DNA of 64,000 nucleotides, from NCBI GenBank assembly GCA_002256485.1, contig NNSG01000008.1, forward strand, positions 62,001 to 126,000, given 5' to 3'. Positions 32,865-36,001 of this stretch are shown here, piece by piece. Under the pieces are notes generated by a model. It searched no databases, was not told the origin of the DNA, and worked only from the letters and a program-made list of their open reading frames with translations. The translations under genes and the position numbers were made by a program. Each line of letters begins with the position of its first letter. The stretch's first letter is position 1. Source of the DNA: Fidelibacterota bacterium 408169 (GTDB lineage: Bacteria > Fidelibacterota > Marinisomatia > Marinisomatales > TCS55).

Positions 32865-33719
32865 ATGGCTAATCTGAAAGATATACGCGATCGGATTAAA
32901 TCCGTAAAAAGCATTCAAAAGGTAACCAAAGCCATGAAAATGGTTGCGGCTGCTAAAATGCGCAGGGCGCAAGAACACATGGAAGAAGCAAGACCTTATG
33001 CCGATCGTCTTTCCACTGTGATCAATCATCTTCTTCCGGATGTGGATCGAGACCTGTTGGAATTGTTGGATGTCCGTGAAGTAAACCGTGTTGGGTATGT
33101 CGTAGTAACATCAGATAGGGGCATGGCCGGTTCATTTAATACAAATGTTTTAAAAATAGCACAAAATGAAATCGATACAATCGGGAAAGAAAATGTGGAT
33201 CTGTTCTGTATTGGAAAAAAAGCACGGGATCATTTTAAAAGACGGGGCTACACTATAATTGAAAATCATACGGAATTCTGGAATGAGTTGAGCTATGGCC
33301 ACGCCATAAAAATAGGTGAAGGAGTCATCAGTCATTTTACGAATCATCATGTGGATGAAATACATGTCGTATACAATGAATTTGTGAATGTGGCTAGGCA
33401 AAATATTCAATCTGAAATGTTAGTACCTCTTACTTTTGAAGAAGAAAACGGTCAGTATTTAGGTCGGCTGTATGAACCAAACAGAGAAGAAATTGTAAAG
33501 AGTTTAATTCCCCGTCACCTAAATATTCAAATGTGGAAGTACTTATTGGAATCTTATGCCAGTGAGCAAGCTGCACGCATGTTGGCTATGGAAAATGCTA
33601 CAGAGAATGCTCAAGATATGATTAAAGAATTAACATTGGAATTCAACAAGGCTCGCCAAGCTGCAATTACGACTGAAATGTTGGAAATCGTCAGTGGTGC
33701 CGAAGCCTTACAAACTTAA
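32865..33719 (+). CDS. atpG: F-type ATP synthase subunit gamma
   Basis: 284 residues. N-terminal ANLKDIRDRIKSVKSIQKVTKAMKMVAAAKMRRAQ and C-terminal ENATENAQDMIKELTLEFNKARQAAITTEMLEIVSGAEAL are the two helices of the rotor coiled coil with the gamma signature (T.E..EI..GA.A). No clear ribosome binding site is visible before the ATG, unlike most genes in the operon, which fits sequence change in the gap upstream. Confidence 0.97.
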   Translation: MANLKDIRDRIKSVKSIQKVTKAMKMVAAAKMRRAQEHMEEARPYADRLSTVINHLLPDVDRDLLELLDVREVNRVGYVVVTSDRGMAGSFNTNVLKIAQNEIDTIGKENVDLFCIGKKARDHFKRRGYTIIENHTEFWNELSYGHAIKIGEGVISHFTNHHVDEIHVVYNEFVNVARQNIQSEMLVPLTFEEENGQYLGRLYEPNREEIVKSLIPRHLNIQMWKYLLESYASEQAARMLAMENATENAQDMIKELTLEFNKARQAAITTEMLEIVSGAEALQT

Positions 33720-33783
33720 TAAATACTATTGCCATAAAATGAATATAAATAAAAAAGAAAAGATGAGAAAGTTTGGGATTCAA

Positions 33784-33811
33784 GAGTCGATGAGTCGGGA
33801 GTCGATGAGTC
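33784..33811 (+). repeat. left GAGTC-rich repeat of the S23 cassette
   Basis: GAGTCGATGAGTC occurs twice in tandem (33784-33796 and 33799-33811). Its inverse complement form, GACTCATGGACTC, occurs downstream of the split gene (34521-34533), so the cassette is bracketed by imperfect inverted repeats. Confidence 0.6.
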
Positions 33812-33987
33812 TAATGAACCAAAGAGTTAGATATGGGAAAAATCGAAAAATTTGAAGATATTGAAGCGTGGCAACGGGCTAGGAAACTTGTAAAAGTGAT
33901 TTATGACATTTCAAAAAAAGGGAAATTCAACCAAGATTTTAAACTTCGAGCTCAAATTCGAGATGCTGGTGTATCTATTATGGGGAA

Positions 33988-34280
33988 CCCCGTGAAATAA
34001 AATGTATTTTGTCTATGTCATAAAGAGTTTAAAGGATGGAAATTTCTACATTGGATATACTTCTGATCTTGAAAAACGAATTCAGGAGCATAACGATTGT
34101 GTATCAAAGTCAACTGCACACAGAAGACCTTTTGAATTAATTTATTACGAAGGAAGTCGAAATATCAAAGATGCTATGCATAGAGAAAAATATCTCAAAA
34201 CAACCTATGGTCATCGTTATCTTAAAAATCGACTAAAAAATGATATGGAAAGTAGTTCATGATGTACTATTTCACAGGGG
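33988..34280 (+). mobile_element. minimal GIY-YIG element with inverted ends
   Basis: About 290 bp inserted in the four-helix-bundle gene. Left end CCCCGTGAAATA (33988-33999); right end TATTTCACAGGGG (34268-34280), the inverse complement apart from one extra A. The ATG of the nuclease gene begins three bases inside the left end and its stop is six bases before the right end, so the element is essentially one gene between its ends. No target duplication is obvious; removing 33989-34279 nearly restores the host frame. Exact borders are uncertain by a few bases because of the C and G runs. Confidence 0.75.
34002..34262 (+). CDS. GIY-YIG nuclease family protein
   Basis: 86 residues, a single URI-type GIY-YIG domain: YFVYVIKSLKDGNFYIGYTS gives the YV(I)-YIG pair, then the catalytic Arg in LEKRIQEHN, RRPFELIYYEG, and the metal-binding Glu in HREKYLKTTYGHRYLKNRL. 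No DNA-binding extension is present, so cleavage specificity must come from the domain itself or a partner. It fills the element at 33988-34280 and is the obvious candidate for moving it, like a homing nuclease or transposase. That role is inferred. Confidence 0.92.
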   Translation: MYFVYVIKSLKDGNFYIGYTSDLEKRIQEHNDCVSKSTAHRRPFELIYYEGSRNIKDAMHREKYLKTTYGHRYLKNRLKNDMESSS

Positions 34281-34495
34281 CCGAAGGTTTTGGGCGTCGA
34301 AGTAATATGGAATTTGCTAATTTTTTAAATTATTCTCATGCTTCGTGTGCAGAAGTTCAATCTCATCTTTATGTCGCATTAGACCAAGACTATATCCACA
34401 AAGATTTATTTCAAAATATCTATGACGAATGTGATGAAATTTCACGAATGATTTTATCTTTTCAAATTTATCTAAGAAAATAATGAATATTACAA

Positions 34496-34533
34496 AGACT
34501 CAAAGACTCATAGACGCATAGACTCATGGACTC
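34496..34533 (+). repeat. right GACTC-rich repeat of the S23 cassette
   Basis: A run of AGACTC-like units: AGACTCAAAGACTCATAGAC, then GCATAGACTCATGGACTC. The last part, GACTCATGGACTC, is the inverse complement (one mismatch) of the GAGTCGATGAGTC units at 33784-33811 on the other side of the split gene. Confidence 0.6.
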
Positions 34534-34576
34534 AATAATCCTCAAAGAAGAAAAAAATGATTAAAACACTATCTAA

Positions 34577-36001
<1,425 letters not shown>

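Follow-up and report, generated by a model that had tools for sequence, protein, structure and literature searches.

Mobile GIY-YIG nuclease genes that stand free of any intron or reverse transcriptase are already known in the form of the Seg proteins (PMC1564403). The Seg-type homing endonucleases of T4 resemble the family described here in being stand-alone mobile nuclease genes within a conserved target, but members of this family encode only 80-90 aa without a separate DNA-binding domain, carry inverted ends, occupy many unrelated targets, have MITEs and, in one clade, are flanked by 4-bp target duplications (TSDs). DDE insertion sequences and their MITEs share terminal inverted repeats (TIRs), a TSD of fixed length and non-autonomous derivatives with the family, whereas they measure about 700 bp or more and the present units are 280 bp long and encode a GIY-YIG nuclease only, with no DDE transposase. 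RAYT/REP (IS200-like) systems are likewise made up of a single small protein and numerous short palindromic satellites, but their enzyme is of the HUH type; RAYT/REP elements are not known to have TSDs, and one unit of the present family is inserted in a RAYT gene (L057). The single-domain GIY-YIG proteins of UPF0213 / YhbQ-YazA are the closest solved relatives of the family protein and, unlike the family, have no mobility recorded in the sources that we searched. Insertions in CPR rRNA genes have also been found to contain GIY-YIG ORFs without fitting any intron class (PMC11270868); the relevant passages report no ends, TSDs or MITEs for these insertions, which likely belong to the same family.

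We examined an insert in an S23-type gene of the window, by which we mean the whole 64,000-nucleotide stretch of a Fidelibacterota contig that was analysed. This insert is likely (with a probability of roughly 0.72) a member of a minimal DNA transposon family, the units of which measure 270-300 bp, end in short inverted repeats and encode one GIY-YIG nuclease of 80-90 residues, although no experiment supports this and movement driven by the nuclease is inferred. The family is widespread and apparently undescribed, and may include the smallest known self-moving DNA transposons; no published account of such elements was found in the open-access literature searched (preprints lay outside that search). 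As free-standing GIY-YIG homing genes are already known, the novelty lies not in the lone nuclease gene, as had been implied in a preliminary description of the locus, but in the inverted ends, the target duplications and the MITEs.

Table 1. Features of the insert and of its host gene in the window.
Feature	Position	Strand	Evidence
Element, 292 bp	33988..34279	+	Sequence inspection and repeat search; terminal arms; no counterpart at orthologous site in G004 and G013
Left terminal inverted repeat, CCCCGTGAAATA	33988..33999	+	Repeat search; same arm type in L028, L030, L031, L043, L161
Right terminal inverted repeat, TATTTCACAGGG	34268..34279	+	Complements left arm at 11/12 positions
GIY-YIG nuclease gene, 86 aa	34002..34262	+	PF01541 E=3.3e-17; AlphaFold2 pLDDT 88; closest solved folds UPF0213, Slx1
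Interrupted host gene, S23/IVP-type four-helix bundle	33833..34483	+	PF05635 on both pieces; intact orthologues L204:1501-1863, L205:1495-1902
S23 N part	33833-34000	+	ORF list; PF05635
TAA stop formed at left end of element, just before nuclease ATG; ends S23 N part	33998..34000	+	ORF 33833-34000
S23 C part, opened by in-frame ATG overlapping nuclease stop (ATGA)	34259..34483	+	ORF 34259-34483

Most of what the preliminary description had claimed for the anatomy of the insert held. It has inverted ends and a single 86-residue GIY-YIG gene, with the length refined from 290 to 292 bp; the start and stop codons lie within a few bases of the ends (the ATG 2 nt inside the left arm and the stop 5 nt ahead of the right arm); and the host is an otherwise intact S23-type gene, the two pieces of which consecutively cover positions 1-45 and 47-104 of the 106 in PF05635 (23S_rRNA_IVP), the family of the 23S rRNA intervening-sequence (S23) protein. 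The claim that removal would restore all but one residue of the host is correct only when one of the C's is counted as part of the host gene. One extra G directly follows the right arm. When searched with at most one mismatch, the 12-mer arm matches the window only twice, at the two arms themselves, with 0.47 matches expected from shuffling. The host gene lies between what we take to be atpG (32865-33719) and atpD (34604-36001), both names being read off the ORF sequences. Repeated GAGTC/GACTC motifs flank the S23 gene within this atp operon (33782-33815 and 34500-34535), and the gene may itself be an older mobile insert.

A search of relatives of the window genome with the S23 protein recovered intact copies at 93% identity in a genome of the same genus (G004) and at 95% in one of the same family (G013). 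In the former the gene follows atpG (89% DNA identity) on a contig that ends soon after, while in the latter it is flanked by atpG and atpD-like DNA, so that the locus is orthologous in both. The empty sequence reads ATCATGGGGAA-TATT-GCCGAAGG and that of the window ATTATGGGGAA-[292 bp]-GCCGAAGG, such that 292 bp stand in place of the 4-bp TATT of the sister's intact gene, a net gain of 288 bp or 96 codons. The unit is thus a discrete insertion missing from orthologous loci, and the window copy has replaced 4 bp at its junction without a target duplication. An exact empty site was also sought in the family around Cecembia, where only diverged intact S23 genes were found. The element is present as a single copy in the window genome, the six other GIY-YIG genes of which have different surroundings.

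Some of those other genes (L002, L003, L005, L006), along with L125 in G001, abut tRNA genes (Val, Pro, Met, Leu), and several have a partial tRNA copy on their far side. The GIY-YIG gene abutting tRNA-Pro is found in a sister species too.

A family scan across the genomes of 84,980 species, most of the compared genomes being metagenome assemblies, returned 79 loci. Inverted ends, defined by an inverted-repeat score of at least 10 next to a GIY-YIG ORF, were found at 62/79 of the loci tested (78 from the scan and the window copy) and in 6/395 shuffled controls. Relatives with the same anatomy occur in more than 20 named phyla, and their length is tight (mostly 270-300 bp), with one GIY-YIG gene filling each unit. 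The ends fall into several families, namely YCCCGTTAGAG (the largest), CCCYGTTAAATA and CCCCGTGAAATA, and a tRNA-5'-end type, GCCCCTCACCCAG, between which left and right arms change together. On the protein tree, which is weakly resolved (78 columns), TIR class changes 9 times as compared to 25.8 times when shuffled, while host phylum changes 39 times. End type therefore tracks the protein and not the host phylum, which means that units have crossed phyla and taken their ends along. The check that the preliminary description had proposed, for constant ends at unrelated sites among relatives and for empty sites in sister genomes (G004 and G013), was positive on both counts, and none of the outcomes that it had named as refuting (unrelated flanks, no repeated ends, or insertion always in the same gene with no empty allele) occurred. 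Its suggestion of a new, very small class of element is supported overall, with the qualification that target duplications are lacking in the subclade of the window, which for the most part occupies S23 genes.

That subclade bears on one rival explanation, a free-standing homing endonuclease gene whose product cuts a conserved site, into which homologous repair then copies the gene, with the inverted ends as a secondary feature. In its favor, the window copy, its near-relatives in a deltaproteobacterial metagenome-assembled genome (L028), Cloacimonadota (L029) and Neomarinimicrobiota (L030), and a less firmly grouped copy in an isolate of Cecembia (Bacteroidota; L031) all interrupt S23 genes at or near the SNIAEG codons, spanning four phyla and without a TSD; moreover, S23 genes and prepilins are both multi-copy families. 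Against it, the larger clade has sequence-unrelated sites, 4-bp duplications and MITEs, and the 86-aa protein has no second DNA-binding domain. S23 junctions also differ by several bases between copies, which is therefore not the copying of one allele. For the family as a whole we consider homing very unlikely, but since the target duplication is missing, a homing-like, imprecise route stays possible for the S23 subclade of the window, to which intronless homing is perhaps best suited. Of the features of Seg/I-TevI-type homing endonucleases, the extra DNA-binding region (NUMOD or similar) is absent from 86 aa, and restriction to an allelic site without duplication fails for the main clade, with its unrelated sites and 4-bp TSDs. 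As a separate observation, one S23 gene (L030/L173) holds two different GIY-YIG units, the second further downstream.

The nuclease is under strong purifying selection, with a dN/dS of 0.05-0.18 in most close pairs, and its gene is therefore maintained. PF01541 was detected in 61/61 proteins, among the invariant residues of which are Y5, G18, R26, H30, E50, E62 and K66; Y5, G18, R26, H30 and E62 belong to the GIY-YIG signature, and the requirement for membership in the superfamily, a fold of this kind together with conserved Tyr/Tyr/Arg/His/Glu, is fulfilled. The AlphaFold2 model of the window protein (mean pLDDT 88) is nearest to the solved structures of UPF0213 (1zg2), Slx1 and the catalytic domain of I-TevI, the best structure-database matches being of UPF0213 type (1zg2, E=1.5e-13; 1ywl, 3.5e-9). 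Neither the domain search nor the model revealed a second or DNA-binding domain within the 86 aa, only GIY-YIG-type domains.

In one clade, that with GTTAGAG ends, insertion duplicates 4 bp of the target, and MITEs without a coding region share the ends. An exact 4-bp TSD flanks 21/43 of its autonomous units (permuted mean 6.9, maximum 15 in 5000 permutations), with a few duplications at 5 bp and nothing above chance at 3 or 6 bp, and 16/20 MITEs sampled from six genomes have an exact TSD. Genomes that carry these units are rich in short units with matching ends: counts of the 10-mer CCCGTTAGAG exceed those of its reversed control in G069 (94 v 3), G070 (38 v 6) and G080 (22 v 1). The 580 kb of the patescibacterial genome G069 contain 56 TIR pairs, comprising 53 MITEs (31-139 bp), two 278-bp GIY-YIG units and one long chance pair; 50/56 have a TSD, exactly 4 bp in 45 cases and 5 bp in 5 (permuted mean 5.6, maximum 14), and the 4-bp duplications begin with T in 44/45 and end with A or G in 45/45, being mostly TNNR. 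Since family loci were found via the GIY-YIG protein, only this whole-genome catalogue and the pattern lists escape that bias. Two criteria for a transposon with MITEs, namely TIRs with a fixed-length TSD and non-coding derivatives sharing both, are thus met by the GTTAGAG clade, although the window copy itself has no TSD. Ends of the window type also occur as MITEs (G062, G067, G068 and G077), only 1 of about 20 of which has a 4-bp TSD, and we therefore limit the TSD claim to the GTTAGAG clade and single cases. In G062 (Cloacimonadota), flanks of the window-type MITEs (L469-L478) are conserved beyond the arms, and the true MITE ends may therefore be further out. Separately, the G069 assembly breaks inside GIY-YIG units at contig ends (L168, L169, L171), so its copy number is underestimated.

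These data also bear on a passenger explanation, in which an unrelated host transposase moves a MITE family, to which the inverted ends belong, and the GIY-YIG gene is cargo. TIRs with a 4-bp TSD are typical of DDE elements, and genomes exist in which MITEs occur without a detected intact nuclease copy: among 287 Patescibacteria genomes, 13 have MITEs (0 for the reversed control) and 4 have intact units, with 2 genomes shared, which exceeds expectation (P=0.011, G069 itself included). On the other hand, the two GIY-YIG copies are the sole coding units between TIR pairs in the 580 kb of G069, where no longer pair has a TSD, and arms of the listed matches in G072, G080, G552 and G554 pair at MITE or nuclease spacing only. 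Nothing other than GIY-YIG is encoded at any of more than 60 loci, although these were found by that gene, and the purifying selection on the nuclease also argues against cargo. The passenger explanation is unlikely but not excluded. A DDE insertion sequence was rejected on the grounds that the only coding units between TSD-flanked ends in G069 and among the pattern matches are GIY-YIG. Viral contigs yielded 99 single matches of a 14-mer (approximately chance) and no relative of the GIY-YIG protein, and thus no sign of a phage carrier.

The sites of related units are unrelated to one another: some lie at housekeeping-gene start codons, others in S23 genes, at the FTLIE motif of prepilins, at the 5' ends of tRNA genes or in a gene for a REP-type transposase. 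The commonest site of the YCCCGTTAGAG clade is a start codon, where the order is host ATGAA, element and a rebuilt ATG or GTG. A possible restart codon ends 32/67 units, some of which open short frames only; restarted downstream genes identified with Pfam include fmt, tsaD, rpmE, folD, ychF and others, as well as an exonuclease III-like (xth-like) gene at L034. Several start-codon units have a nuclease ORF without its own ATG, open from that of the host (MNPVRD..), and a nuclease stop TGA that overlaps the restart ATGA/GTGA. At the prepilin GFTLIE motif, L081 and L166/L091 have an in-frame ..LTG|FTLIE junction, and in G080 copies occupy this motif in three prepilin genes of one cluster, the first and third of which are identical at 274/277 positions with unrelated flanks. 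A single genome thus holds near-identical copies at separate sites. A unit of the isolate Sunxiuqinia dokdonensis (L057) lies in a REP-type transposase gene (NCBIfam NF047646, E=1.5e-10, under the curated cut-off), and its TSD is backed at the protein level, with NNPV|HHGF continuous after the TCCA duplication.

A third rival, an RNA-level intervening sequence removed or processed via a stem of the two arms, would be consistent with the complementarity of the arms and with the intron-unlike GIY-YIG insertions in CPR rRNA genes (PMC11270868). However, an Rfam search (E up to 5) returned only chance snoRNA and lncRNA matches, TSDs are a DNA-level trace, and splicing is unnecessary for start-codon insertions, which restore the host start. 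We regard this explanation as all but excluded. A group I intron with a GIY-YIG gene was ruled out by the absence of a ribozyme (Rfam) and of room for one in 292 bp, and a Penelope-like or other GIY-YIG retroelement by the single 86-aa ORF and the lack of a reverse transcriptase.

Under the preferred reading of a minimal transposon, the GIY-YIG protein would recognize the inverted ends and make staggered cuts there and at the target, after which host repair would join the unit; filling of the stagger would give the 4-bp duplication of the GTTAGAG clade, and in the window copy joining would have occurred with the loss of about 4 bp. The ends may also keep the insertion tolerable for the host gene. 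At start codons, the host ATGAA would often drive the nuclease ORF, and the right end re-creates a host ATG or GTG in overlap with the nuclease stop; prepilins receive from the right end the Gly ahead of FTLIE; and in the window, the S23 gene is split into two ORFs that would be coupled. Several points count against this reading: the 3' overhangs left by known GIY-YIG enzymes span 1-2 nt and offer no obvious source of a 4-bp duplication; TSDs are missing from the S23 subclade of the window and from most MITEs with window-type ends; the window genome holds a single copy; and in some genomes MITEs occur without a detected intact nuclease copy. That a single-domain nuclease acts as the mobility protein, and hence that the element is autonomous, as the preliminary description suggested, is inferred and has not been shown. 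A bolder reading, to which we lean by a narrow margin, is that a new class of DNA transposon, approximately 280 bp long and the smallest autonomous one known, has this nuclease as its transposase, is present in more than 20 named phyla and moves its own MITEs; here too, nuclease-dependent excision and insertion are inferred.

The known enzyme chemistries of DNA transposition number only a handful (DDE, HUH, tyrosine and serine recombinases, and Cas1). If the preferred reading is true, a nuclease of 80-90 residues moving a 280-bp unit would add one such chemistry and lower the minimum size of an autonomous transposon; in Patescibacteria, Omnitrophota and related genomes, it would also account for many short palindromes and 'GIY-YIG' genes. 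Ends that rebuild start codons and prepilin cleavage sites would indicate how a transposon can persist in essential genes of streamlined genomes.

The left arms of most units encode N-P-V-[KR], a motif that is conserved in REP-type transposases; a gene of this type is among the targets (L057). The left arm varies at positions 1, 4 and 7, which are third positions of codons. An origin of the left arm from a REP-type transposase gene was considered, but this variation equally fits coding by the right arm (..LTG) combined with complementarity. In the tRNA-5'-end clade (L089, L096, L100, L101), apparent duplications are longer, at ~12 bp of the tRNA start, and the duplicated sequence reappears in the arms as its reverse complement.
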